Shown here: piece after piece, positions 50,937-64,000 of the stretch
How positions within the stretch are numbered: position 1 is the stretch's first letter
Layout: each line of letters begins with the position of its first letter
Assembly: GCA_013314775.1 (NCBI GenBank)
Contig: JABUFB010000013.1
Coordinates: 124,001-188,000 of the forward strand
Direction: 5' to 3'
Length of the DNA: 64,000 bases
From: Armatimonadota bacterium
Lineage (GTDB): Bacteria; Armatimonadota; Zipacnadia; Zipacnadales; JABUFB01
Made by a program: the position numbers and the translations under genes
The notes under the pieces: model-generated
Seen by the model: the letters and a program-made list of their open reading frames with translations, nothing else
The model's database searches: none
What the model was told of the DNA's origin: nothing

Positions 50937-52052
50937 ATGAAGATCACCCGCCTGGAAACCTTCTTCGTCAAGCCCCGCTGGCTCTTCCTGAAAGTGCATA
51001 CAGACGAGGGCCTCTGTGGCTGGGGCGAACCCATCGTGGAGGGCTGGTCGCAGACCGTCGCCGCGGCGGTCCAGGAAATGGGCCGCTACCTCATTGGCCA
51101 GGACCCACGCCGCATCGAGCACCACTGGCAGGCCATCTACCGCGGGGCCTTCTACCGGGGCGGCCCCGTGCTCACCAGCGCCCTCAGCGGCATTGAGCAG
51201 GCCCTGTGGGACATCACCGGCAAGTGGCTGGGCGTCCCCGTCTACCAGCTTCTCGGCGGCGCGGTGCGCGACAAGATCCGCGTCTACGCCCACGCGGGGG
51301 GAGCAACGCCCGAACAGGCCAGGGACTCTGGGCGCTCCGCCGTTGAACGCGGCTTCACGGCAGTCAAGACCGGTCTCTTTGACGCCGCTCGCTTCATCGA
51401 AGGCCCGGGCTTCATCGACCGGGCGGTGGAACGCCTCGCGGGATTGCGCGAAGGCGTCGGCGAGAACGTGGACATCGGCATCGACTTCCACGGTCGCGTT
51501 GGGCCAGCTCTCGCAATCCAGCTCGCAGCGGCCCTGGAACCTTACCACCCCATGTTCATCGAGGAGCCCTGCCTGCCCGAGAACGTGGACGCACTGGTCC
51601 AGGTCGCCCGCAGCACCAAAGTCCCCATTGCTACCGGCGAGCGCCTGTTCACTCGCTTCGGATTCCGCGAAGTACTTGAGAAGGCCGCGGCCGTCATTCT
51701 CCAGCCCGACGTCTCCCACTGCGGCGGAATCTCGGAGATGCGGAAGATCGCATCCATGGCCGAGACCTACTTCGCCGCCATCGCGCCCCACTGTCCCCTT
51801 GGCCCCATCGCCTTCGCGGCGTGCCTCCAGGTGGACGCCTGCACCCCCAACTTCCTGTGCCAGGAGCAGGTCTGTCTCGGTGAAGGGTATCTGAAGCGGC
51901 CCTTCACCGTTGAGAACGGATACGTGGCCACACCAACCGGACCGGGCCTGGGCATCGAAGTGGACGAAGAGGCCCTGGCGGAGCAACTCTACGATGGCGC
52001 TTGGGAGAACCCGCGCCTGTGGCACGAAGACGGATCGGTCGCGGACTGGTAA
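50937..52052 (+). CDS. D-galactonate dehydratase-like enolase superfamily protein
   Basis: A 371-residue protein. Segments typical of DgoD-type dehydratases are MKITRLETFFVKPRWLFLKV, GLCGWGEPIVEGW, LSGIEQALWDITGKWLGVPVYQLLGG, IDFHGRVGP (Asp183, His185), MFIEEPCLPENV (Glu209), ATGERLFTRFGF (Glu235) and APHCPLGPIAFAA (His285). It dehydrates a hexonate such as D-galactonate to the 2-keto-3-deoxy acid. Upstream SDR supply of the sugar acid is plausible. Other hexonates are possible since specificity varies within the group. It is convergent with the secretin gene. Confidence 0.9.
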   Translation: MKITRLETFFVKPRWLFLKVHTDEGLCGWGEPIVEGWSQTVAAAVQEMGRYLIGQDPRRIEHHWQAIYRGAFYRGGPVLTSALSGIEQALWDITGKWLGVPVYQLLGGAVRDKIRVYAHAGGATPEQARDSGRSAVERGFTAVKTGLFDAARFIEGPGFIDRAVERLAGLREGVGENVDIGIDFHGRVGPALAIQLAAALEPYHPMFIEEPCLPENVDALVQVARSTKVPIATGERLFTRFGFREVLEKAAAVILQPDVSHCGGISEMRKIASMAETYFAAIAPHCPLGPIAFAACLQVDACTPNFLCQEQVCLGEGYLKRPFTVENGYVATPTGPGLGIEVDEEALAEQLYDGAWENPRLWHEDGSVADW

Positions 52053-52063
52053 CCCCTCGGGCC

Positions 52064-53497
52064 CTATCCCGCGGGAGCCCGGAAGCTCTCCCGCAGTCCG
52101 CTTCCCGGAGCTCTCGGCGCGGACTGAGACGGCTTCGGCTTGCTCGCCGGCGCAGCGAGCCGTGCGCCGCGCGGCGACATAATCTGATCGCAGCTTGTCA
52201 CAGCCGCATTGGACATGAGCAGTTCACTGAGCAGCGGGCCCTGGCACTGCCCCTGCTCGTCCAGCAAGTGCGGCGCGATCACGAAAATAATGTCCCGCTG
52301 GGCCCGTTCGGTATGCCGGGACTGGAACAGCTTCCCGATAACCGGCAAGTCCCCCAGTACAGGGAGACTGCTCACCGACGTGCTGGTGGTCTCCTGCAGC
52401 AGCCCGCCGATCACGATGGCCTGCCCGCTTCGCACCCGCACGTTGGACTTCACGCGCCGAATCGTAATTACCGGAAGCCCCTCAACACCCTCACCCGTCA
52501 CGTCGGCCACACTCGGCTCGATGTGGCATATAATCTCTCCGGTCTCCCTCATAACCCGCGGCGAGATGGTCAGGCGAATAGTGGCATCCACCTTTTCCAG
52601 TCGCGTGTACGCATACGCCGCCGACCCGGTGAGCAGGCTGAAATACTGCTCCGTGCCCACCTCAATCTCCGCCTGCTCCCCGTCTGCCGCAACAATCCTC
52701 GGGTTTGCCCGCAGCGTCGCCTTGTTGTTGCGCAGGAGCGCTTTCAAACCCGCCAGGATGTTGCCGGGGACTGGTGTCGGGCCGCCAGTTCCCGGCCGGT
52801 TGTCACCGCCGACGCCGGTCGTATTGGACTGGTAGTTCAGCAGCCCGCTGGCGATATCCACCGCGATGTGCGTCGTCGCCGCCGCCAGACCGTAACTGCG
52901 CACATCCGCCGCGTTCGCTTCAAGCACCAGCGCCTCGATCATCACCTGCACCGGCGCAGCGTCAAGAGCCGCCAGCAATGGCCGTATCGCCGCAATGATC
53001 TCCTCAGGCGCATAGACCAGACACCGCCGGGTCTTCGCGTCAACTGTGATGTACTGCGAGTACTTCTCGGGCAGAAGCTTCTTGACGTCAGCGGGCTCCA
53101 GGTGCGTGAGAGTGAAGATCTCGGTGTCCGCAACCAGCCGGTAACTGGGTGCCATGGGGTCCGACGCCGTCACGAGGTACACGCCCGGCTCGATCTGCTT
53201 GTACACCATCCCCAGCGGAAGCAGCAGAAGTCGCAGTGCCCGGCTCAGGGGAACATCCTGCAGCTCCAGCGTGACGAAACCGGCCACGCTCTCATCCTGC
53301 AGAATTGTGACCCCGGCATCCAGCGCAATGTCGCTCAGCACCTGGCGGATGTCGGTGTTGAAGAATGAATTGCTCACTAAGGGCTCGGCCTCCGCCGGTT
53401 CAGACGCGGTCGGGGCATCATCGCCCGAGCACACGCAGATAACCAGCACGAGCGCGGTCAGGCACATCCAGCCACGCGCTGGGCTACTTCCGCTCAT
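52064..53497 (-). CDS. Secretin (GspD/PilQ-type outer membrane channel)
   Basis: A 477-residue secretin. The start at 53497 follows GGAG and lies 14 bases inside the gene before it. A signal peptide is at residues 1-24. Residues about 38-108 form an STN/N0-like domain (LVSNSFFNTDIRQVLSDIALDAGVTIL, FVTLELQDVPLSRALRLLLLPLG). A ring domain follows (FTLTHLEPADVKKLLP, then IRPLLAALDAAPVQVMIEALVLEANA). The secretin core ends with the signature IVIGGLLQETTSTSVSSLPVLGDLPVIGKLFQ and IIFVIAPHLL. A Pro/Ser/Ala-rich tail of about 50 residues is unusual. It is shorter than GspD (fewer ring domains). No other secretion motor genes are in the window. Confidence 0.92.
   Translation of the reverse strand: MSGSSPARGWMCLTALVLVICVCSGDDAPTASEPAEAEPLVSNSFFNTDIRQVLSDIALDAGVTILQDESVAGFVTLELQDVPLSRALRLLLLPLGMVYKQIEPGVYLVTASDPMAPSYRLVADTEIFTLTHLEPADVKKLLPEKYSQYITVDAKTRRCLVYAPEEIIAAIRPLLAALDAAPVQVMIEALVLEANAADVRSYGLAAATTHIAVDIASGLLNYQSNTTGVGGDNRPGTGGPTPVPGNILAGLKALLRNNKATLRANPRIVAADGEQAEIEVGTEQYFSLLTGSAAYAYTRLEKVDATIRLTISPRVMRETGEIICHIEPSVADVTGEGVEGLPVITIRRVKSNVRVRSGQAIVIGGLLQETTSTSVSSLPVLGDLPVIGKLFQSRHTERAQRDIIFVIAPHLLDEQGQCQGPLLSELLMSNAAVTSCDQIMSPRGARLAAPASKPKPSQSAPRAPGSGLRESFRAPAG
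52071..52094. terminator. Hairpin overlapping the end of the secretin gene, next to the dgoD-like stop
   Basis: A 7-bp stem (GCGGGAG with CTCCCGC) and 10-base loop. It begins 19 bases past the dgoD-like stop on the plus strand, lies within the last codons of the secretin gene, and has no U tract. Confidence 0.35.
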
Positions 53498-55223
53498 CTT
53501 CTGCTCCTACAGGGTCTTGGGTGGGGGCTGGGGCCTGCAGCTGCACACTCAGGACGGACACGCGCTTCCCCTGGGGGCCGTCTTCGACCCGGATACGCAG
53601 CTTGTCATTTGGGCTGTTGGGGCCAAGATCCAGCGCGCTTATCAGTTCGTACTCTCCTGGCTCGACGTCGGCAAAGTCCAGGGTCCCCGAAAAGACCAGC
53701 TTGCCCATGGGCAGTGCCAGCGGTACCGTAGTCTCCAACGGAACGCTCAAAGCCGCAGTGCCTGCGGCATTCACCACGGACACACTGCAGCCGGCCTTGA
53801 AATGCACATTGCCAATATTCACATACTCCGCCGAGACTGAATACCGCGAGCCGTCCTGGTGGGCGATCTCCAGGTTCTCAGATACCCCCGCGATCACCGT
53901 CTCCGCACGGACATTGCGCACCCACACCAAGGCGGTGGCATCCCCTGCCGCGCCGCCGTCCTCATGGGTCGCCCGCAAGTGCAGTTCTGCATAGGCGTTT
54001 GCCGGGATAGGTCTGTCCTCCGGCACCCGCACGGTGAGCCGCAGGTTGCGGTCCGCCGAAGGGCGCAGGGTGAACTGCTCCGGCCGCACTTCCAGCCACT
54101 CTGCGGCATTGAACATCTCGCCGGACACATCGCCCATCGTCACCCCACTCAGTGCCTTCGGCCGCAACAACCTGCAAGAGACATTCCCGGGTTCATCAGA
54201 GAGATTCTGCACCGTCGCGCTGACCGACCGCATCGCCCCCGGGTAAGCTTCCACTTCCAGGAACTCCGGCAGGGCCATCTGCACATATCCCGCCGCACTG
54301 GTGACCGTCGGGTCACCGGTGAAATCCAGTTCGCGCTCCACCGTGCGCAAGCGCCGGCCGTTCACCGACAATGCGGCTGAGACCTTGTACTTCCCCGACG
54401 GCAGTCTCCGCTCCAGGTCCACCACCGGGGCGATCTCCACTCCCGGCACGATCCCACGCTCCGGCAGTTCCACCTCTGACAGCCGTCGCCAGCGCCCGCC
54501 GGCATCGCGCAGCACCGTGACCTTCCCTGATAGCTTCCCGTACGTCTCCCCGGCGTTCTTGGCCTTGATGATCACCGCGGTCGTAGGGATCTTGATGTCG
54601 CTCGGGCGCGGCGTGCGGTCTTTTTCGTCCAGGAACCGCATATCCGCATCAGTGATGTGTATGTCCTCCCGCGCCGGCGCGCCCTGGATGTTGATGCGCA
54701 TGGGAAGCAGGAAACGCACCACCATCTTGAAACTGCCGCGCTTCACCGGCTCATTCTCCACCACGATTGCCGCCGAATAGAACCCGCGCACACCCGTCGG
54801 CGTGCGCACTAGCAGCCGCACCTTCTTCACCTCATTGGGCTGCAGTTCCAGCTTCGACGGGTCCAGGCGGACCCACTCGGCGCACGAGCGCAACCCGGTG
54901 ACGTCGGTCTTTTCATCCTTGGGGTCCAGCGCGACCCAGCCGCCGGTGACGCTCTGCGACAGGTAGAGAGCCTGCACATTCAGCGTCTGAGGCTCATTCG
55001 CCGTATTGCGCAACTCCAGTTCGCCGCTGATGGCCACCCCCGGCGTGACCGTGACGTCGAAGGACATCGGCTTGGCCATGAACCCCTGGCCGTGAGCGAG
55101 TGCGCACGCAAAGACCATTGCCAGCGCGGCTGCCAACGCCCTCCCTGCTTGCACAACGAGCTTCTCGGTCACCATCGGGATTGCCGGCGGACGTCGCCTG
55201 GCCTCCTGTTGCTCGGCGTTCAT
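53484..55223 (-). CDS. Multi-Ig exported protein with PapD/DUF916-like N-terminal domain
   Basis: A 579-residue protein, or 563 if translation starts at the ATG at 55175; neither has a strong ribosome site. The signal peptide runs from about residue 22 to 46 (AGRALAAALAMVFACALAHG). Residues about 52-181 match the periplasmic chaperone/DUF916 beta-sandwich (MSFDVTVTPGVAISGELELRN, VQALYLSQSVTGG, VKKVRLLVRTP, GFYSAAIVVENEP). Three or four more Ig-like repeats follow, separated by linkers (VTSAAGYVQMALPEFLEVEAYPGAMRSVSATVQNLS; EYVNIGNVHFKAGCSVSVVNAAG). It could be a chaperone, a fibre scaffold, or a secretin partner. Its end overlaps the secretin start by 14 bases. Confidence 0.8.
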   Translation of the reverse strand: MNAEQQEARRRPPAIPMVTEKLVVQAGRALAAALAMVFACALAHGQGFMAKPMSFDVTVTPGVAISGELELRNTANEPQTLNVQALYLSQSVTGGWVALDPKDEKTDVTGLRSCAEWVRLDPSKLELQPNEVKKVRLLVRTPTGVRGFYSAAIVVENEPVKRGSFKMVVRFLLPMRINIQGAPAREDIHITDADMRFLDEKDRTPRPSDIKIPTTAVIIKAKNAGETYGKLSGKVTVLRDAGGRWRRLSEVELPERGIVPGVEIAPVVDLERRLPSGKYKVSAALSVNGRRLRTVERELDFTGDPTVTSAAGYVQMALPEFLEVEAYPGAMRSVSATVQNLSDEPGNVSCRLLRPKALSGVTMGDVSGEMFNAAEWLEVRPEQFTLRPSADRNLRLTVRVPEDRPIPANAYAELHLRATHEDGGAAGDATALVWVRNVRAETVIAGVSENLEIAHQDGSRYSVSAEYVNIGNVHFKAGCSVSVVNAAGTAALSVPLETTVPLALPMGKLVFSGTLDFADVEPGEYELISALDLGPNSPNDKLRIRVEDGPQGKRVSVLSVQLQAPAPTQDPVGAEDERK

Positions 55224-55601
55224 GGCCCCGAGGTCCGGGACAAGCGGCTCAGGGCTAAGCGAGCTCCGGCACCAGCCACCAGAGCCAGTCGGCGGGTCTA
55301 GTGGAACCCCGGTGAGGCGTCAAGCAAAGGCGCCCCACGCGGAGGCACATCGATCATGTGGGATTCGTGCCGGCTGGGGCCGAATCTGCGTTCAGCGTGC
55401 CCTTCACCCCGAACCGTTGCCTCACAGCCCTCGAAGCGGGCGGCAGTCTGTAGCCGGGGGCGGAAGCCCCCGGAATGCCGCCCCGCAACGGCACCTTGAG
55501 CCCCGGAACCTGGGCGACAGGCCGTTCTCCGCGCACCCGGGTCCGGCCGCACATCCGGCGCTTGCCGATGCCCCTCCTCACCCGAGCCACACCCACGGGC
55601 G
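55224..55601. other. Intergenic region between the PapD-like gene and the first beta-helix gene
   Basis: No supported gene. It contains a very stable hairpin at 55454-55473 (listed separately), and no obvious sigma70 promoter for the PapD-like gene. Confidence 0.5.
55454..55473 (-). terminator. Very stable GC hairpin downstream of the beta-helix gene
   Basis: CCGGGGGC and GCCCCCGG form an 8-bp stem around a four-base loop. It lies about 130 bases beyond the minus-strand stop at 55602, with no U tract. It may limit readthrough into the PapD-like/secretin pair. Confidence 0.4.
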
Positions 55602-57290
55602 TTACGGCTGCTTCACCGCGCTGTAATCCACATCCCAGTCCGGCCCGTCCGTGATCGTGTGGGCCAGTCCCCAGTATCCGCTCGCCCAGGTCGCGGTGTC
55701 GTAGAAATAGGTCTGTCCCCGCTGGTACACAACAGTTTTCGTCGTCCCGCCTACGGTGCTCCATCCATAGGCACGGTACAGGGCGCCGCCAAGTTTGTAC
55801 CACCGCACCCGCAGCGCATTCGGCGTGCTGCCCGTCTCCGCATTGGTGACAACCACCTGCCTGTCGCCGTCGACACCCGTGATGGTGCAGACCAGCGCCT
55901 CCCCTGCTACCGTGTAGCTCTGCCCGTTCACCAGCTCAGTCCCGGTCTCCGGGTTCGACGGGTCGTCGCACAGGTAGAACTTCATCGTGTCTTTGTCCCA
56001 GGCGAGAACGACGCCCTCGCCGTGCAGGCCCACTGACCCGAGCCACGGGTAGTAATCCACGCCTTCGGACACTGCGCCGCCCAGGGATCCAGCCGGGGCC
56101 GCGTTAGCCATGTCCGCCGCTGCCGGTTCGGGCGATGCCGGGACTTCGATGGTGCCCACGGGGTCCGACGGTCCCTCCGCACTGCCCCACCAGTTGTTAT
56201 CCGCATCCACCACCCCTACGGCTTCGCTGCTGAGCGCCACGGCACTCGTCGCCTGCCCGCCGTCAATGAAATTGTTATTGCGAAACACGATGCTTCCAGC
56301 ATCGCATCCACTCATCACCAGCGCCCCGGACTCGGGCCGGCTTGCATTGGCATAGTTATTGAATTCGAAGTCATTGTCCCGCACATCAATGTCGCTGCAA
56401 CTGCCCCCGAGATCGGTCCCCATCAGCGTTAGGCCCCAGGAAGCCTCTCCGTCGCTCTCAGAAGGATAGGAATTCCGGAAAGTGTTGTTTTTCACCGACG
56501 CGCCGTCGGCATCGATTCCCAGAGCGATGGCGCCGGCATGGTCGAACACGTTCTCCTCGATGACTGCATCCTGTAGCCCACGCACCCAAATCCCATAGCC
56601 GGTGTTCGATACCGTGTTCCCTGTGATCACCGGAGCGTTGATGGCCAATGCCAGAGCGTAGGTGCCCACGCCGAATCCCCCGCCCGGGCTGGAGAGCACA
56701 TTGCCCGTGATCGCGAGGCTGCTGTAGTTCGCCGTCCCCGACGCGCCTCCAGATACCAGAATCCCACCCAGGCTCAGGCTGCCTGGTGCGCCCACGGCAA
56801 TCAGGTTGTCGCTGATGGTGATATTCGCTGCGCCGATCACTCCACTGGCAGTTGATGGGCTCAGGAGGTAGACGCCCGCCAGGCCAGTAGTGGAATGCAC
56901 GTAGTTGCTGGTCAGCGTGAGGCCCGACCGGTTCACAGTATTCGCGGGCCAACCGATGCCTACCCCGCTTGATGCAATCTCAAAGCCGTTCACGCTCACA
57001 TTGTCGGCAGTGATCGTCACCGTGCCCTGAATAGTGCTCTCACCGCCCGCGCGACCACCATCAACTGGCTTGACGCCGGCTTGTGCACCCACCAGCGAGA
57101 GCGCTTTGTCAACCGTTACACTCTCATTGTAGGTTCCCGCTGCCACCTGGATCGTGTCCCCCGGTGCGGCAACATTCACAGCAGCCTGGATGGTTGGTTG
57201 ATCGCCCGGTACACTAATCGTACCCGACCATGCGGATGCGGCGACCAGCGCAGCCAGCAACCCCAGCAACAGCGCCCGTAGTATGGACAT
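55602..57290 (-). CDS. Secreted parallel beta-helix protein A with C-terminal module
   Basis: A 562-residue protein; the ATG at 57290 follows GGGGAG. Residues 1-20 are a signal peptide. TISVPGDQPTIQAAVNVAAPGDTIQVAAGTYNESVTVDKALSLVGA is the standard start of a right-handed beta-helix. The helix continues to about residue 430 with short repeats (NITISDNLIAV, SSLAITGNVL, APVITGNTVSNTGYGI). The last about 130 residues are a separate module: VVLAWDKDTMKFYLC, NALRVRWYKLGGALYRAYGWSTVG, QRGQTYFY and the end WDVDYSAVKQP. The same module ends the neighbouring protein. It is probably a surface or fibre-associated protein. Confidence 0.87.
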   Translation of the reverse strand: MSILRALLLGLLAALVAASAWSGTISVPGDQPTIQAAVNVAAPGDTIQVAAGTYNESVTVDKALSLVGAQAGVKPVDGGRAGGESTIQGTVTITADNVSVNGFEIASSGVGIGWPANTVNRSGLTLTSNYVHSTTGLAGVYLLSPSTASGVIGAANITISDNLIAVGAPGSLSLGGILVSGGASGTANYSSLAITGNVLSSPGGGFGVGTYALALAINAPVITGNTVSNTGYGIWVRGLQDAVIEENVFDHAGAIALGIDADGASVKNNTFRNSYPSESDGEASWGLTLMGTDLGGSCSDIDVRDNDFEFNNYANASRPESGALVMSGCDAGSIVFRNNNFIDGGQATSAVALSSEAVGVVDADNNWWGSAEGPSDPVGTIEVPASPEPAAADMANAAPAGSLGGAVSEGVDYYPWLGSVGLHGEGVVLAWDKDTMKFYLCDDPSNPETGTELVNGQSYTVAGEALVCTITGVDGDRQVVVTNAETGSTPNALRVRWYKLGGALYRAYGWSTVGGTTKTVVYQRGQTYFYDTATWASGYWGLAHTITDGPDWDVDYSAVKQP

Positions 57291-57332
57291 CGCGTGCTCT
57301 CCCCTCGGGAACAATCCCATAGTGTGGTAGCG

Positions 57333-57396
57333 GCCGGGCGCCCGATAAAGACGCCCGGCATTCACGTCCGCAGCGCCGGGGCGCAACGCGCCCGGG
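57333..57396 (-). terminator. Paired hairpins between the two beta-helix genes
   Basis: An 8-bp stem (GCCGGGCG at 57333-57340 with CGCCCGGC at 57352-57359) and an imperfect GC hairpin at about 57372-57396 lie in the 120-base gap. They sit after the stop at 57411 of protein B and before the start of protein A, so they may attenuate transcription into protein A. Confidence 0.4.
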
Positions 57397-57410
57397 CTTT
57401 TCATCTGTCC

Positions 57411-59042
57411 TTACGGCTGCTGGACCGCCGAGTACGCCACATCCCACGTCGGCCCATTGCTCAGCGTGTGGCAGAAACCACGGAACCCCGACTGCCAACC
57501 CTCGCCGTAGATATATGTCTGCCCGCGCTGGAAAACTGCCGTCTTGGCACTGGCGCCGATTGTGCTCCACTCGTAGGCGCGGTAAAGGGCGCTCCCCAGC
57601 ATGTACCACCGCACACGCAGCGCATTCGTGCCCGATGCGCCACTCACCACCGCCTGCTTGTCGCCGCTCACGCCTGTGATGTTCACAACCAGCGGGTTCC
57701 CGCCGTAGTAATACGTCTTCCCGTTCTCCACTTCCGTGCCCGAAGCCGGATCACTCGCGTCGGCAGTCAGGTAGAACTTCTGATCATCCTTGTCCCACGC
57801 CAGAATGTTGCCCAGCACCTGGTCGGCGTCGTAAATGACCCAGCCGAAGGCCGCATTGTCGTACTGGTGCTCCACGCGGGCTTCAATGGCCGCAAGGTCC
57901 GCCGCGCCCACGAAAGTGCTCCCAAGGGCGTTCACGTCATTTCCCTTCGCAGTGACATTGCTGATGTCCCCCAGCACGTTGTTCTCGAAGGTGCAGGAGA
58001 CCGTCACGTTCGTCGGCGTGGTGTTCAGCTTGCCCGGCTCACCAATCCGGACCCCGCGCTGGCAGTCGGTGATCTCGCAGCCACTGATGGTCACATTGTC
58101 CAACGTGGCCGGGTTGTCCGTGTAAGTGGTGGAGTCGTTGCCCGTGCCGCGCGCCTTGATGGTCACCCCGACCCCGTTGGTCGCATCTCCTTTGCCGCAG
58201 TTGGTCACCGTGCAGTTGCTGAACGTGATCCGGGCGTAGTCGCCGAACTTCATGTTGACGTCGATGCCCGCGGCATAGCTCTTCGCGAAACCGCTGTGGA
58301 CCACATCGCAGCCGGTGAAGCTCAGGTTGTCTCCCTTCTCCAGGTAGATCCCCTTGACCACGTTGTCATTGAACGTGCATCCGGAAACCGTGCCGGAGAA
58401 AGTCGTGCCGTTGGCAGAGCTCTGCTGTGAGTACAGTCCGACGGCGTCCGACTCATAGCCCCAGCCCGTACCGTCGAAGTCGCAGTCGCTGATGGTTGCA
58501 CCGGTCAGATTCCCGGAGACGCCGACCACGAGCCCCCGCTTGCGATTGTGGCTCATGGAGCAGTGTGACATGGTCAGGCCGTCGACATCGGCGCTGATCT
58601 CCATACCCGCGAAGGCACTTTGCGAGGCAGCCACGGTGTCAAGGCTCAGATTCGCTACGTTTCCGGTCACCCGCAGACACGCCTGGGTGACAGACGTCGC
58701 GTTGTTGCGCCCCGTGATCCCGATGCCCGAAATGCTCACATCGTCCGCAGCAACCGTCACCACCGCGTCCGCATTCCCACCAGCGATGATCGTGCCGCCT
58801 GGCAGGAAGTAGCGGGGATCCGCCGGGTCGCGGGTCCAGCCGGCGCCTTCCAGGCTTAGAGACTTATTGATCGTGATGGCTTCTGCATACGTCCCTGCTG
58901 CGATCTGAATCGTGTCTCCCGCGTTCGCCGCATCGATTGCGCTCTGAATCGTCGGGTATGCATCACTGGGCACGTCGAGAGTAGCTGGAAAGACCGAAGC
59001 CGCCAGCAGGCCAACAAGTACGCATATGATCGAGAGTCGCAT
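57411..59042 (-). CDS. Secreted parallel beta-helix protein B with C-terminal module
   Basis: A 543-residue paralogue of protein A. The ATG at 59042 follows GGGAGGGAG. Signal peptide residues 1-19 (MRLSIICVLVGLLAASVFPA). The helix start is LDVPSDAYPTIQSAIDAANAGDTIQIAAGTYAEAITINKSLSLEG and repeats are rich in Asn, Thr and Cys at turn positions (LTMSHCSMSHNRKRGLVVG; ARITFSNCTVTNCGKG). The C-terminal module matches protein A: ILAWDKDDQKFYLTADASDP, NALRVRWYMLGSALYRAYEWSTIG, QRGQTYIYG and end WDVAYSAVQQP. The tandem pair arose by duplication. No catalytic residues of a lyase were recognised. Confidence 0.87.
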   Translation of the reverse strand: MRLSIICVLVGLLAASVFPATLDVPSDAYPTIQSAIDAANAGDTIQIAAGTYAEAITINKSLSLEGAGWTRDPADPRYFLPGGTIIAGGNADAVVTVAADDVSISGIGITGRNNATSVTQACLRVTGNVANLSLDTVAASQSAFAGMEISADVDGLTMSHCSMSHNRKRGLVVGVSGNLTGATISDCDFDGTGWGYESDAVGLYSQQSSANGTTFSGTVSGCTFNDNVVKGIYLEKGDNLSFTGCDVVHSGFAKSYAAGIDVNMKFGDYARITFSNCTVTNCGKGDATNGVGVTIKARGTGNDSTTYTDNPATLDNVTISGCEITDCQRGVRIGEPGKLNTTPTNVTVSCTFENNVLGDISNVTAKGNDVNALGSTFVGAADLAAIEARVEHQYDNAAFGWVIYDADQVLGNILAWDKDDQKFYLTADASDPASGTEVENGKTYYYGGNPLVVNITGVSGDKQAVVSGASGTNALRVRWYMLGSALYRAYEWSTIGASAKTAVFQRGQTYIYGEGWQSGFRGFCHTLSNGPTWDVAYSAVQQP

Positions 59043-59274
59043 TGTATTACTCCCTCCCCAACTGTGGGACGCGCGGGCGAAGTCCCCCCCCACAAGGGGC
59101 GCATTGCCCTGCGCTTGATACACCGGTGCTAACGGGCTCAAGAAACTCAGTCTTGTCTATAGGCCGCATAAAGGGGCAACTGCGCGAACCACCTCCCGAT
59201 ATTGCACGCAGACGAATCAGTTCAGACACCAAATCGCGGTCAAACAGGCAAAAAAGGGAAATGCCCCCGCCATC

Positions 59275-59784
59275 TCAGAGGGCCCCTTGGATCTTCCGGA
59301 ACGCCACTATGCGCAGGTTAGCCACGTCTACCCAGTAATTGTCGCGGTTGTCCTCATGCGTAGCCTGCATGTTGTACACCTTGTCATCGCCGCAGAAGAA
59401 AGCCTGATAACTGTCGGGGTTCAGAGGGTTACCGTCGTCATCAACCACAGGGATTCCCCACGAGTAGGTGAGAGCGCTGAAATACCGAACATGCTGCTTG
59501 TGCTGGTCGTAGAAAATGTCCTTGTTCTTCACGTAAGGCATGATCTGGTACTGCAACCAGCTGACGTCGTCGCCGCCCAGGGGGTCTCCGGGAGGTGCAA
59601 GCTCGTCATGGTCATCCGAATACATCTGCACCGCCAGCATGATCTGGCGAAGATTGCTGATGTCTCGCGTCGTCCGTGCTTTTCCCCGGGCTGCACTGAA
59701 AACCGGGAACAGCATCGCGGCGAGGATCGCAATGATTGCGATGACTACGAGAAGCTCGATGAGGGTGAACCCGCGGTGCGACAT
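59275..59784 (-). CDS. Atypical prepilin-like protein in the secretin locus
   Basis: A 169-residue protein starting at the ATG at 59784 (a GTG at 59793 is also possible). Leader [41 protein letters not shown]. Unlike the other three prepilins here it lacks the H-X9-DG motif and the Cys pairs; its body has [32 protein letters not shown] and ends with [21 protein letters not shown]. Sitting between the small beta-sandwich genes and the beta-helix genes on the same strand, it could be a pseudopilin that works with the secretin. It is closer in layout to minor pseudopilins than to DUF1559 proteins, but this is inference. Confidence 0.85.
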
Positions 59785-59832
59785 ATCAACCACCCAGTAC
59801 CGCGATTGGCGCTCGCGGCAGGCGCAGTTTGG

Positions 59833-60339
59833 TCAGAAAAGCACGGACAATGTGAGCTGCACGGTGCCCACCGGCGTCGTGCTGCTGTCGCTCTCGAGCT
59901 TCCCCACGGCGGCAGTGTCATTGGCCCCCCCGGAAGCCAATGGATAGGAGGGCGCAGTCCCTTCAGCAGTGACGGCTATCGTGATGAACCCCGTCTTGTA
60001 ACGGTCACCGGGAGCGATGTAGCCGTCCGACCCGAAACTGCTGGCGGTGCTGATACTCGTTGTGCCGCTGAAGCCGGGAGACGGCAGCGACCACGACTGC
60101 CAGCCGTGGGTTATCTGGAATGGAACATTTGAGCGGGTGGCGAATGCCGCCGAACCTTGCCACAGGTCCGGGCTTTCGCCCTCCACCGGCGTCAACGTGA
60201 TGGTGTCGTCGGCGATGTTGCAGTACAGGTACTGCTCCACATGGGCGTTGAAAGTCTCCGTTGCCGTGGCGAGGTCATCCGCGGCAGCGGGGAGAAGGCC
60301 GGATAGGATCAGAATGATGATTGCTGCGCCGGTACACAT
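59833..60339 (-). CDS. Small secreted beta-sandwich protein
   Basis: A 168-residue protein starting at the ATG at 60339 behind CAGGTGA. Signal peptide MCTGAAIIILILSGLLPAAA. The mature part begins DDLATATETFNAHVEQYLYCNIADDTITLTP, which resembles the start of the frameshifted neighbour (EATATFKAHVLAYAHLAID). It ends with VGTVQLTLSVLF, a final strand like those of spore-coat-U/fimbrial beta-sandwich subunits. It has one Cys in the mature region. It is probably a structural subunit or surface protein. It is 48 bases upstream of the prepilin gene on the same strand. Confidence 0.8.
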   Translation of the reverse strand: MCTGAAIIILILSGLLPAAADDLATATETFNAHVEQYLYCNIADDTITLTPVEGESPDLWQGSAAFATRSNVPFQITHGWQSWSLPSPGFSGTTSISTASSFGSDGYIAPGDRYKTGFITIAVTAEGTAPSYPLASGGANDTAAVGKLESDSSTTPVGTVQLTLSVLF

Positions 60340-60440
60340 GCAGTTCACCTGAGCAGGGCAGGTTCTGGCTGTTTCGATGCCCGGCGGAGGCTCTTCGATG
60401 AGCAACCCCCACCGGGCAATGGCTCAAAGGCGGGTGAAAC

Positions 60441-61236
60441 TTAGTTAACGGCGGCCAGAGTCGCAACCATGGTCGCGGTGTAGTCACCGGCCAGAGCGAT
60501 GGTCTCGTAGACAAAGTCACCGTCGGCATCGATGCGGTTCTTCGCCTTCACGCCGAACGGGAGCCGCAGGTAGCGGGCGAAATCATCGACCGGGTCGACG
60601 GCGAGATCGTTGACAATGATCGTGCCAAGAGAACCTTGAGCCGCAAGGGTGGGCATGTCGTCGTCAGGCAGCGCCACCGACGGCGCGACGCCCGCGGGAT
60701 ACGCATCGGCAACCTGGAACCAGCCGTCGCCCACGCGGAATTCAGTGTGGGTGGCCCAGGGAACGATGCCCGCATTGTCGAACATGGCTTCGAGGTCGCC
60801 CAGAGAGTAAGCCGTCCAGAGCTTCTCCGTCAGCAGATCGGGGTCGTCCGCGGCAAACTCCGTGACTTCAACGCTGAGCAGGCACGGGGTGTTGATTTCC
60901 GCGGTGATGAGACCGGCATCGGGATTGGGGTCCGCGCCGACCAGCGGCTCAATGGAATCCTCACCGGGAGTGCCGGCCGGATTGTCGCCGGGCACAACGA
61001 GGTCCTTCGGCGGGTCGATTGCCAGATGAGCGTACGCCAGCACATGCGCCTTGAACGTCGCGGTGGCTTCCAGCGGGAAGCCTTCATCGATGGACGGGTT
61101 CGGGGGGGGTGGTCGTGTCGTAAGTGATGATGTCTGATCCACCTACGCCGCCGTCGGGCCGTCCCTGCGCCCAGGCCATGCCGGCCGTCAGGCCCAGCAG
61201 TGCCACGAGCAGGATGCCTGTCATGAGTCTCGACAT
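60441..61236 (-). pseudogene. Secreted beta-sandwich protein gene, frameshifted at a C8 tract
   Basis: The gene starts at the ATG at 61236 behind GGGAGG with a signal peptide (MSRLMTGILLVALLGLTAGMAWA), then QGRPDGGVGGSDIITYDTTTPP. In the given sequence this frame stops shortly after the homopolymer at 61102-61109 (eight G on the plus strand, eight C in the coding strand). With seven C's it would run on into NPSIDEGFPLEATATFKAHVLAYAHLAID and 220 further residues ending AGDYTATMVATLAAVN, which are clearly coding. The full protein would have about 264 residues. This is either an off phase of a slippery tract, a real mutation, or a sequencing error. Confidence 0.8.
61102..61109. repeat. Homopolymer G8 (C8 in the coding strand) at the frameshift
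   Basis: Eight consecutive G's just downstream (in the coding sense) of the signal-peptide segment. Frame restoration needs seven or ten. Long single-base tracts in surface genes are typical sites of slipped-strand phase variation. Confidence 0.75.
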
Positions 61237-61432
61237 TGTTGTGGTCCTCCCATCAAGTTGACGTCTCTTGCCCCGATATAAATGGGGGTAGTACAGCATC
61301 GAGGGCCTCGCGATACAGGCCCGTTGCGTCCGTCTGGTATGCTCCGCGGGTCCATCACCTCCGACAGGTGCCGGGCTGAACTGGCAAGGACAAAAATGGA
61401 TAGCGGCAGGCGGAATACCCACCGGGTGCGAC

Positions 61433-62557
61433 CTACGGCATGGGCGAAACCGTGATGGTCAGCGTTCCACTATAGTCTCCCGCGAGGTCCTCCACCCCAT
61501 TGCGCCAGGCCGCTCCGCGCAGGCCGATCTCATTGACCCCCACCGTGTTCACCGGACTGACGTTGGACACCGGCCCCGGCCACGGAGACCCCCCATCGGC
61601 CGCTCCTGTCCATTGGTCGGGGGTCCCGTGCCCTGAAGCGTCGCCGCCGATATCACCCCAGGTGCTCCAGAGCGCGCCCGTTCCCACAGGCTGGCGCAGG
61701 CGGAACGCGGTCTCAATCTGGTAAGGGTGGGTGCCCGGCCCGGTCAGGTCCGTGCACGCGGAGACGCTCAGGTTGAAGTCCACATTGCTGCGCACCGTGA
61801 GGAGCCCTTCGCTGGTGGTGTACATCCAGCCGGTGAAGTTGCCCTCGGTGTCCGGGAACTCCAGGTCGGCGTCCATCTCTACCTGGAACATTTCCGTGAG
61901 ATTCAGGTGCAGTTCCAGCGGGATCTGGCCGGTAAAACCCGCGCACTGGAAGTACATGAGCGCATTGCTCACGTAATGCCCCGGCGGGTCGGCCCAGTTG
62001 ACCTGCACTCGGAACTCGATGTACAGCCAGCCGTCGACGTCGCCCACAAGGCTGCGCATGAATGCCGTGCCGGTGCAGTTGACCCACGCAGTGCCCAGCG
62101 GGTCGGATTTCAGCTCGTGAACCTGGATTCTCGTCGGGGGGATGACTGCGCCGGCATTGGTGGCATCCTGCCCCACCATGTTCCCGCTGATCACCCGGAT
62201 GCGCCAGGGCTGGTTCTTCGGTAGCATGGTGTAGACCGGTTCCACACCCAGTGTGTAGCCGGGTTCGGAAGCGTAAAAATGGATCTTCGCCACGGGGCTT
62301 GAGGCGGTCTGGGGGACGATGCCGGAAGACGCCCCGGTTCCAACCAGGGCCATGGGCACCGGAAAGGCTGTCGCGAGAGCCTCGGGAGGAGGCGGCTGGA
62401 GCGTGCCGTCGCCCGCAGGTCCGACTGCGACGAGCACCGGAGCCGGGCCGGGTGCTCCCGCGGGGGCGGGCACCGGCGCCTGCGCCAGAGCAGTACAGGC
62501 CAGAATCAGCGCCAGCAGGTTGAGGACCGGTTGCGTCCCTCGAACTTCGGGCATCAT
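61433..62557 (-). CDS. Secreted protein with Pro/Ala-rich N-terminus and beta-sandwich C-terminus
   Basis: A 374-residue protein starting at the ATG at 62557 (adjacent ATG at 62554), with GGGACGAG upstream; the longer frame is Arg-rich noise. Signal peptide up to about residue 26 (VLNLLALILACTALAQ), then a linker rich in Pro and Ala. Residues about 80-240 have a beta domain (IHFYASEPGYTLGVEPVYTMLP; IEFRVQVNWADPPGHYVSNALMYFQCAG). The last about 130 residues begin NLTEMFQVEMDADLEFPDTEG and end DLAGDYSGTLTITVSPMP, again like the other small proteins of the locus. It is probably a subunit or tip/adhesin-like member with an extra N-terminal domain. Confidence 0.8.
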   Translation of the reverse strand: MMPEVRGTQPVLNLLALILACTALAQAPVPAPAGAPGPAPVLVAVGPAGDGTLQPPPPEALATAFPVPMALVGTGASSGIVPQTASSPVAKIHFYASEPGYTLGVEPVYTMLPKNQPWRIRVISGNMVGQDATNAGAVIPPTRIQVHELKSDPLGTAWVNCTGTAFMRSLVGDVDGWLYIEFRVQVNWADPPGHYVSNALMYFQCAGFTGQIPLELHLNLTEMFQVEMDADLEFPDTEGNFTGWMYTTSEGLLTVRSNVDFNLSVSACTDLTGPGTHPYQIETAFRLRQPVGTGALWSTWGDIGGDASGHGTPDQWTGAADGGSPWPGPVSNVSPVNTVGVNEIGLRGAAWRNGVEDLAGDYSGTLTITVSPMP

Positions 62558-62622
62558 AGGCTCGTCCCGTTTCACACGTGTGTCACGCCGCCGAGATATA
62601 CCGGCTTGCGGCTCCCCCGCCC

Positions 62623-63861
62623 TCACACGCCCCCGGCACGGTCCGCTACACGACGTCGACGCAACAGGTATATCGCAAACAGCCCCAGGGCGAACATGAA
62701 GTAGGTGGAAGGCTCGGGCACGGCCCCACCCATGCCGTAGTAGATCTTGTGATCGCCGAAATCGCCCCCGCCGAAATACACCGCATGCGGCCTGTCCAGA
62801 CTGTCGATCTCCAGCCCGACCCATTCGGCAGTGGTGTCTTCGGCAAGAAGCCTGGGAGTAATCCACGATCCGCCGCCACGGTGTGCGTAGAACAAGTCTT
62901 GCGCTGCCGGATCCCAGAACACGATGTGGGCGATCCCCTGACTATCAACCGACAGGTCCAGGTAGCGCAGATCATTGAAAGCGAAGAACTCCGCGCCGTC
63001 GTAGATGGTCTCTGTGACCCAGGAACCCTCGTCTTGATAGGCATACATGATGTCCCCGGTCAGCGCGTCCATCCACGCCAAATGCGGCTTGCCATCAGCG
63101 TCCACGTCCATCGCGCAGTAGACGCCCTCACCGTCGGCAATCGGCTCCGAGGACCATGAGCCGCCGCTGCGGTCGGAGAACATCGGGAACTGGCTAAGGA
63201 ACGTGCTGTCCACCCAGCCGATGCGCGCGTCGGCCACCGTCCCATTCAGCCGCAGCGAGACGTCACCGTTCACCAGGGGCGCTTGCGCTACTTCCTCGTG
63301 TACCCACCCGCCCACGGTCTGGAAGGCGTAGTCCAGGGTGTCGTCTTCGAAGTCCAGGTAGTTATGCAGGTCGATCCAGGCGACCGCCAGGTTTCCGTTG
63401 GCGTCCAGCCGGATGTCTGTGTGGCGCGGGTTAGTGACTTGGGTGTCGTAGATCGTGGAGACGTGCCAGTCGCTGCCGTCGAAAGTGGCGTGATTGAGGC
63501 TGTACAGGGTGTCAGTGGAATTGGACCAGCGGTATGCGATGTGCGGCGTATTGCCCTGGAAGATCAGGCTTGTGCTCTGGCCGTTGAATTTGCCTGCTTG
63601 AACCACTTCGGATGACCACGTAGCCCCGCTCTTGAAGGCGTAGACGAGGTCACCGGCACCCCCGGACAGACCCTGGTACGTGACCGCCGGGACGTCGTCG
63701 CTATTCAGCGCGAAGCCCAGCCCGCCATCCCGGGTGGATACCGGTGCATCGAATATCGGGCTCATCGGCCAAGCCATGGCCGCCATCGCGACGGACGGGC
63801 ATAGCACTGCCAGCAGCATTGCTGCGCCGATGAGGCATCCGCTACGGAAACACGGTGACAC
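62623..63861 (-). CDS. PEP-CTERM protein with repeated propeller-like motifs
   Basis: A 412-residue protein; a GTG at 63861 (GGAG seven bases upstream) or a TTG at 63867 is the start. The signal peptide covers about residues 10-28. The middle part has about five repeats built around DADGKPHLAWMD / DSQGIAHIVFWD / DSLDRPHAVYFGG followed by LFYAHRGGGSW-like segments, as in beta-propellers. The C-terminus VPEPSTYFMFALGLFAIYLLRRRR is a textbook PEP-CTERM signal, implying exosortase processing and attachment or secretion with exopolysaccharide. No exosortase gene is in the window. Twelve bases separate it from the gene upstream. Confidence 0.9.
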   Translation of the reverse strand: MSPCFRSGCLIGAAMLLAVLCPSVAMAAMAWPMSPIFDAPVSTRDGGLGFALNSDDVPAVTYQGLSGGAGDLVYAFKSGATWSSEVVQAGKFNGQSTSLIFQGNTPHIAYRWSNSTDTLYSLNHATFDGSDWHVSTIYDTQVTNPRHTDIRLDANGNLAVAWIDLHNYLDFEDDTLDYAFQTVGGWVHEEVAQAPLVNGDVSLRLNGTVADARIGWVDSTFLSQFPMFSDRSGGSWSSEPIADGEGVYCAMDVDADGKPHLAWMDALTGDIMYAYQDEGSWVTETIYDGAEFFAFNDLRYLDLSVDSQGIAHIVFWDPAAQDLFYAHRGGGSWITPRLLAEDTTAEWVGLEIDSLDRPHAVYFGGGDFGDHKIYYGMGGAVPEPSTYFMFALGLFAIYLLRRRRVADRAGGV

Positions 63862-63873
63862 AAGCAAACTCCG

Positions 63874-64000
63874 CTACTGCAGCGTCATGTCTACAAGCGC
63901 GTCAGCATGATTACCGACGGGGACAGTCACTCCGTGCCAGTACGTGGAACGCAGAACGAGGCGCCCGACGAAGGCCCTTCCATCACGTTCAAATCCTAGA
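63874..64000 (-). CDS. C-terminal end of another secreted beta-sandwich-like protein (cut by window edge)
   Basis: A minus-strand frame enters from the right edge and stops at 63874-63876. Its 41 visible residues include RDGRAFVGRLVLRSTYWHG and end VPVGNHADALVDMTLQ. The final Gly-x-(3)-A-x-V-x-x-T-L strand pattern resembles the ends of the three small proteins of this locus. The 12-base gap to the PEP-CTERM gene suggests the operon extends beyond the window. The identification is based on a short segment. Confidence 0.6.
   Translation of the reverse strand, partial: LGFERDGRAFVGRLVLRSTYWHGVTVPVGNHADALVDMTLQ

Follow-up and report, generated by a model that had tools for sequence, protein, structure and literature searches.

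A possible chaperone-secretin locus for surface assembly in an Armatimonadota bacterium

The described systems closest to the locus reported here are the chaperone-usher systems, the WxL/WxLIP clusters, and the GspD/PilQ secretins. Secretins are familiar as the exits of ATPase-driven machines. The locus was found in a 64,000-nucleotide stretch of an Armatimonadota genome (GenBank assembly GCA_013314775.1; 6.1 Mb in 37 contigs). This whole stretch, bases 124001-188000 of contig 13, is called the window below. The locus encodes small secreted proteins, a protein of immunoglobulin (Ig)-like domains, and a compact secretin.

The chaperone-usher systems (archaic Csu, Caf1, Fim, and Pap) share with it the PapD-type fold, found here in each module of the Ig protein. 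They also share the beta-tailed small secreted proteins beside the chaperone and an outer-membrane exit encoded next to it. They differ in that the exit here is a secretin instead of an usher, the chaperone is doubled, and the small proteins have no fimbrial family match. The usher family PF00577 was found in none of 20 genomes (this one and 19 relatives) with a positive E. coli control, which agrees with the absence of an usher in the first-pass annotation of the window.

The WxL/WxLIP clusters (Gram-positive, DUF916-DUF3324) also have a single Ig protein with small secreted proteins. Module 1 of the Ig protein here is closest to Enterococcus WxLIP by both profile and fold. The clusters differ in that the protein here has two modules and no C-terminal membrane helix, a secretin is added, and the small proteins have no WxL family match. 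What the window secretin shares with GspD and PilQ is the secretin domain, accompanied by STN and one Secretin_N. The secretin here differs in belonging to a clade of its own, from loci without an ATPase signature or a regular prepilin.

The locus is real and conserved. Its conserved core consists of the small secreted proteins, the Ig protein, and the secretin. The first-pass annotation had made its proposal of a joint function depend on such conservation, and the set was found to recur in relatives. The system is neither a chaperone-usher system, since it has no usher, nor a WxL cluster, since it has no WxL match and no membrane helix. By cut-off its secretin falls outside the named GspD and PilQ families. 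In its working it appears to come closest to a chaperone-usher system whose exit is a secretin. It is probably a variant of chaperone-dependent surface assembly, and there is a fair chance that it is a distinct pathway in its own right. Among the papers listed in our searches of the open-licence PubMed Central (PMC) literature, preprints lying outside this scope, we found no description of a chaperone-secretin system or of a DUF916-linked secretin.

The double-module Ig protein and its secretin

The Ig protein matches WxLIP_PGBD/DUF916 (PF06030) with 29.8 bits, just above the Pfam cut-off of 27.3, in line with its first description as a PapD/DUF916-like multi-Ig protein. Its modules 1 and 2 are homologous (hhalign 99.9%, E 1e-30, from the halves of the 16-row alignment A1). 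As judged from these comparisons, it is a tandem of two two-Ig PapD/WxLIP-like modules. A PDB sequence profile search with A1 ranked WxLIP first (E 4e-7). A search with the 8-row chaperone alignment A2 found nothing in the same database.

The AlphaFold model of the Ig protein had a mean predicted local distance difference test score (pLDDT) of 79.8 and a predicted template modelling score (pTM) of 0.52. Because of the pTM value, the arrangement of the two modules relative to each other is uncertain. The two-domain PapD-type fold is present in the predicted model, and each half matches whole chaperones (fold only). With VIA-align, Enterococcus WxLIP aligned to residues 30-290 with Z 18.2 and a root mean square deviation (rmsd) of 5.0 over 240 residues. 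Caf1M aligned to residues 295-527 (Z 12.8, rmsd 4.5, 178 aligned) and CsuC to residues 30-279 (Z 12.6, rmsd 4.3, 182 aligned). YadV, SfaE, FimC, and PapD scored below Caf1M and CsuC. Foldseek placed ciliary proteins with poor rmsd at ranks 1 to 19 and WxLIP at rank 20. PMC10599100 gives a C-terminal transmembrane helix and an N-terminal NQIDKxxxYFDLK motif as WxLIP features. No C-terminal membrane helix was seen in the model, and the motif is absent from the window protein (by eye).

Matches to the Ig protein were retrieved from 20 of 291 Armatimonadota genomes with the single sequence and from 42 of 291 with profile A1. The double-module form was present in 25 genomes and a single-module form in 22, with 6 of these containing both. 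One cut match (G225) is undecided. No match came from the one other genome of the genus (G254), and the spread is therefore patchy. Two further phyla contained matches, in 35/147 and 7/80 genomes. One locus from Candidatus Hydrothermota (L093) and one from Candidatus Krumholzibacteriota (L094) contain two small secreted proteins, the double-module gene, and the secretin in the same order. The places found in these phyla numbered 46, being L093, L094, and 44 others; 20 of the 44 were examined, including all 8 full double-module matches. Genome G091 contains four separate chaperone-secretin loci (L041, L178, L179, and L188) with differing small-protein sets.

The first-pass annotation had suggested looking for secretins beside DUF916-like genes in other genomes, and the pairing was found almost throughout the double-module class. 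Three phyla supplied 41 double-module loci that could be tested, and in 40 of them a same-strand secretin of one clade lies downstream of the chaperone gene (partly by eye). The first set contained 36 double-module genes, 3 of them too near a contig end to count, and all 33 remaining genes have the clade secretin within 3 kb. In the further-phyla set it lies beside 7 of 8. The chaperone and secretin genes overlap by 4 nucleotides in 12 of the 40 adjacent loci. A second double-module gene stands between them in L039, and two PEP-CTERM-like genes do so in L045.

Three loci were set aside for this count. In L038 and L180 the chaperone is at the contig end. In L035 no secretin was found in the remaining 1.8 kb, which is filled by a beta-helix open reading frame (ORF). 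Seven duplicate loci and two contig-edge fragments (L208 and L209) were also left out. The cut chaperones of L043, L181, and L189 were counted as double since the match runs into module 2. The broken or masked secretin ORFs of L046, L047, and L177 were counted as adjacent.

The window secretin contains an STN domain, one Secretin_N domain, and the secretin domain. It was recognized as a secretin in the first-pass annotation, and PF00263 gives 131.8 bits against a cut-off of 27.5. It misses the NCBIfam cut-offs for GspD (146 versus 351 bits), PilQ (144 versus 284), SctC (108 versus 238), and MshL (93 versus 250), as do four further clade secretins. Other secretins of the same genome (L001, L002, L003, and L005) likewise miss them. 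Failure at the cut-offs is therefore weak evidence, and the clade is the telling point.

The secretin tree contained 73 secretins from these genomes and named contigs, with L177 and L007 left out. The DUF916-adjacent secretins form one 32-row clade with support of 100/100. Rows labelled as chaperone-adjacent make up 29 of the 32 inside the clade and none of the 41 outside it. The three unlabelled rows are L085, whose contig begins inside the gene; L046, a broken ORF that is actually adjacent; and L076, from genome G068, in which the contig bearing the chaperone stops at that gene. The adjacency label changes four times on the tree, with at least three changes forced by starred branches, because these three rows are scored as non-adjacent. 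Among named contigs, those with the closest relatives of the secretin belong to Armatimonadetes/Armatimonadota, Fimbriimonadaceae, and Candidatus Hebobacteria. The secretin of L085, an Armatimonadetes contig, is 92% identical to the window secretin.

Chaperone and secretin trees agree over 27 loci (Mantel r 0.636, reached in 0 of 9,999 permutations). The agreement supports co-inheritance of the two genes, and shared genome ancestry would in part also produce it.

Another group of secretin genes is present in the same genome. Locus L010 (contig 2, 86001-106000) contains three in tandem on the minus strand, at 100449, 102132, and 103937. The middle one is a weak match (49.8 bits), and by eye a secretin accompanied by Tad-like genes lies close to the trio. 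The spacing of the trio recurs in 8 of 15 relatives searched: G255, G247, G059, G281, G265, G270, G275 (twice), and G002.

Small secreted proteins and single-module loci

Beta-tailed small secreted proteins were counted close upstream of the chaperone. A protein was counted if it was short and secreted, if beta-formers made up at least 40% of its final 12 residues, and if it ended between 900 nucleotides before and 260 nucleotides into the chaperone ORF. Such a protein is present in 27 of 32 evaluable double-module loci and 19 of 20 single-module loci. One of the five double-module misses is the window itself, in which the small genes are more distant, beyond the prepilin and beta-helix genes. 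In L046, L047, and L178 the small secreted protein present has a weaker tail, and L186 contains none. In a set of 114 small proteins, partly chosen by eye (30 of 140 candidates were removed and 4 added by hand), 79% have beta-formers in at least half of the last 12 residues. In the control sets the share was 14% (181 signal-peptide-like proteins) and 20% (463 proteins).

Profile searches of the PDB with small-protein alignments A10 and A11 gave unrelated chains (best E 0.14 and 0.056). One small-protein family, from L045, L093, and L094, spans three phyla.

The single-module loci form a second class. They encode a chaperone-like protein of about 250-320 amino acids (aa) and a second protein of 600-970 aa that has prealbumin-like domains at its C-terminal end. 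They share with the double-module loci a homologous chaperone module (hhalign 99.9% to module 1), small secreted proteins upstream, and some related small proteins. They differ in that the chaperone has a single module and the place of the secretin is taken by a large protein, probably an outer-membrane barrel. The clade secretin was found in none of 34 single-module loci in the stretch read (22 from the first set and 12 from further phyla). A large protein, complete or begun, lies downstream in 33 of the 34 (16 of the 22 by profile and 17 by eye). The 16 belong to one family by profile, and two of them are cut by the contig end. Five more of the 22 have a downstream gene of 724-969 aa (by eye), and L052 has none. 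All 12 loci from other phyla have a 627-953 aa gene downstream (by eye, unmatched by profile).

Six of the large Armatimonadota proteins and that of L049 end in CarboxypepD_reg/SdrD_B-type domains, and their middle part has no match. This plan resembles that of ushers with C-terminal domains, and the middle part may form a barrel. The large proteins of L190-L207 and L253-L264 have no Pfam usher match. They are perhaps an unrecognized usher family.

The small proteins of the two classes were compared within the 114-sequence set without signal peptides, which could inflate links. L042:8820-9404 gave cross-class links with E down to 2e-16; that gene is downstream of the secretin. L040 was linked with L204 (E 1.5e-5 to 6e-4). 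L052 was linked with L093, L094, and L040 and with the L050 group, its class being ambiguous and its locus without the large downstream gene.

The secretin seems to stand in the place of an usher, because it accompanies 40 of 41 double-module and 0 of 34 single-module chaperones and 33 of the latter have the large protein. The simplest reading is that the secretin of the double-module class replaces the usher-like protein of the single-module class. The chaperone may have been doubled together with a switch of exit, from an usher-like barrel to a secretin; this secretin would let folded, strand-complemented subunits through and need no ATPase of its own. We regard this as possible, a little short of probable.

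Possible mechanism and alternatives

We lean slightly towards a dedicated chaperone-secretin assembly module that builds a surface fibre or coat and takes its drive from strand exchange instead of an ATPase. The first-pass annotation had proposed the chaperone and secretin as a distinct route. The clade, the adjacency, and the contrast with the single-module loci favor that part of the proposal; its accessory parts did not hold.

The chaperone and the small proteins begin with signal-peptide-like stretches, and export by Sec is therefore expected. The small, probably beta-sandwich subunits would cross the inner membrane by this route. The soluble double PapD/WxLIP-like chaperone would catch them in the periplasm by lending a strand. 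It would then deliver them to an outer-membrane ring formed by the dedicated compact secretin. The subunits would exit through the secretin pore and form a short fibre or coat, with strand exchange as the drive instead of an ATPase. The two modules may hold two subunits, or one subunit and the periplasmic ring of the secretin.

Strand-complemented delivery is suggested by the combination of a PapD-type fold, beta-tailed small partners, and an adjoining outer-membrane pore. The lending of a strand has precedent: PMC10599100 reports that AlphaFold2 inserts a DUF916 strand into WxL, and PDB entry 9i25 is titled as WxLIP bound to long WxL. The small proteins are candidate subunits that would bind the chaperone by a strand and pass through the secretin into a fibre or coat with no ATPase help.

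Several observations weigh against this model. The 66 small proteins searched have no credible Pfam or NCBIfam match and no match to a fimbrial family (E 0.01). The predicted structure of small protein C is unusable (pLDDT 33.5), and for both reasons the subunit fold is putative. Other PapD-like Ig proteins with different functions, CEP192 and HYDIN, reach Z 11-12.6, so the fold does not prove chaperoning. For the large single-module proteins, "barrel" and "usher-like" are used by inference because the PDB profile matches lie mostly in the C-terminal prealbumin-like part of these proteins. L250 is a double-module locus whose contig continues for 3.5 kb without a secretin; a 523 aa protein follows the chaperone there. 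Finally, T2SSE-type ATPases are encoded elsewhere in all 20 genomes, with 9 matches in this one.

Together with the prepilin gene inside the block, these ATPases make a borrowed type II or type IV machine possible. In that case a type II secretion system (T2SS) or type IV pilus (T4P) machine encoded at another site would use the secretin as an additional exit; the small proteins would be its substrates, and the Ig protein would act as an adaptor or piloting factor. We consider this unlikely. The clade secretins are separate from the other secretins of these genomes. By simple patterns, a same-strand prepilin motif was found within 8 kb in only 3 of 36 loci, and a T2SSE-type Walker A string in 0 of 36 (platform proteins were not searched by profile).

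A less probable alternative is a diderm WxL cluster, in which the Ig protein would be a surface or wall scaffold for the small proteins and the secretin would serve another purpose. This would leave the tie to one secretin clade unexplained. It would fit the identity of the nearest solved relative, WxLIP, and the pairing of one Ig protein with small secreted proteins that PMC10599100 describes for WxL clusters. The WxL family was absent from the matches of all 66 small proteins, and the Ig protein model has no C-terminal membrane helix.

That secretin and secreted-protein genes are merely side by side by chance is highly improbable and was rejected: prepilin and beta-helix genes do separate the small genes from the chaperone gene in the window, but the adjacency across three phyla, the secretin clade, and the tree agreement all speak against it.

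If the chaperone-secretin module is real, secretins would serve a chaperone pathway too. One protein family would link the Gram-positive WxL clusters with the Gram-negative chaperone-usher pili. The two natural classes would let the fitting of chaperone to outer-membrane pore be tested directly.

Gene layout and accessory genes

The block consists of nine minus-strand genes from 63867 down to 52064 (ORF list and gene calls; Table 1). The first-pass annotation had the single strand right and counted ten genes. From 63867 the order is PEP-CTERM protein, A, B (in two frames), C, prepilin, two beta-helix proteins, Ig protein, and secretin. With the longest secretin ORF, which starts at 53497, the overlap with the end of the Ig gene at 53484 that was noted at first amounts to 14 nucleotides. 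A secretin start at the later ATG at 53467 would abolish it. To the left, a plus-strand mandelate racemase-like gene ends at 52052. To the right, the neighboring genes run divergently from the block. The first-pass annotation had named an usher or a complete type II/IV system just outside the window as counter-evidence. No ATPase, platform protein, usher, or T2SS/T4P gene was seen in 32 kb on that side (ORFs by eye, no profile scan). With this flank and the plus-strand left neighbor, the block stands alone.

Table 1. Genes of the block, in window coordinates
Feature	Position	Strand	Role	Evidence
Compact secretin (STN, one Secretin_N, secretin domain)	52064..53497	-	Core	Pfam; in the DUF916-adjacent secretin clade
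Periplasmic Ig protein, two PapD/WxLIP-like modules (predicted); start perhaps 55175	53484..55223	-	Core	PF06030, hhalign, model
Beta-helix protein 2; start perhaps 57290	55602..57404	-	Accessory	Pfam Beta_helix; C-terminal domain common to protein 1
Beta-helix protein 1; start perhaps 59123	57411..59141	-	Accessory	Pfam Beta_helix
DUF1559-type prepilin	59275..59793	-	Accessory, not conserved in relatives	Pfam N_methyl and DUF1559
Small secreted protein C, 168 aa	59833..60339	-	Core type, putative subunit	Gene call; relative in L035; no family
Small secreted protein B, body frame, 233 aa ORF	60441..61142	-	Core type, putative subunit	ORF; one-frame relative in L035
Small secreted protein B, signal-peptide frame, out of frame with body	61084..61236	-		Three-frame translation
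Secreted protein A, 374 aa	61433..62557	-	Core type, putative subunit or tip	Gene call; relative in L035
PEP-CTERM protein, first gene of block; start perhaps 63819	62623..63867	-	Accessory	Pfam PEP-CTERM; relative in L035

Three small secreted proteins were reported at first, together with the tail of a fourth. The three stand, without a fourth. In gene B the signal peptide and the body are in different frames, with the break around eight consecutive C residues (C8) at 61102-61109, and its relative in L035 is in one frame. The break reflects an assembly error or a genuine frameshift. The run may alternatively be a slippage site able to switch a surface protein. Secreted protein A and small protein C also have relatives in L035.

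The prepilin (N_methyl and DUF1559), the two Beta_helix proteins, and the PEP-CTERM motif were all confirmed by Pfam. As core parts of a joint machine, the role first given to them, they were rejected, for the prepilin on the low motif count given above. A beta-helix and a PEP-CTERM gene do recur in L035, the nearest relative. Beta-helix proteins 1 and 2 share a C-terminal domain of about 130 aa that is 61% identical between them (57411-57848 and 55602-56015). It was found nowhere else in this genome and is perhaps a sorting or anchoring domain.

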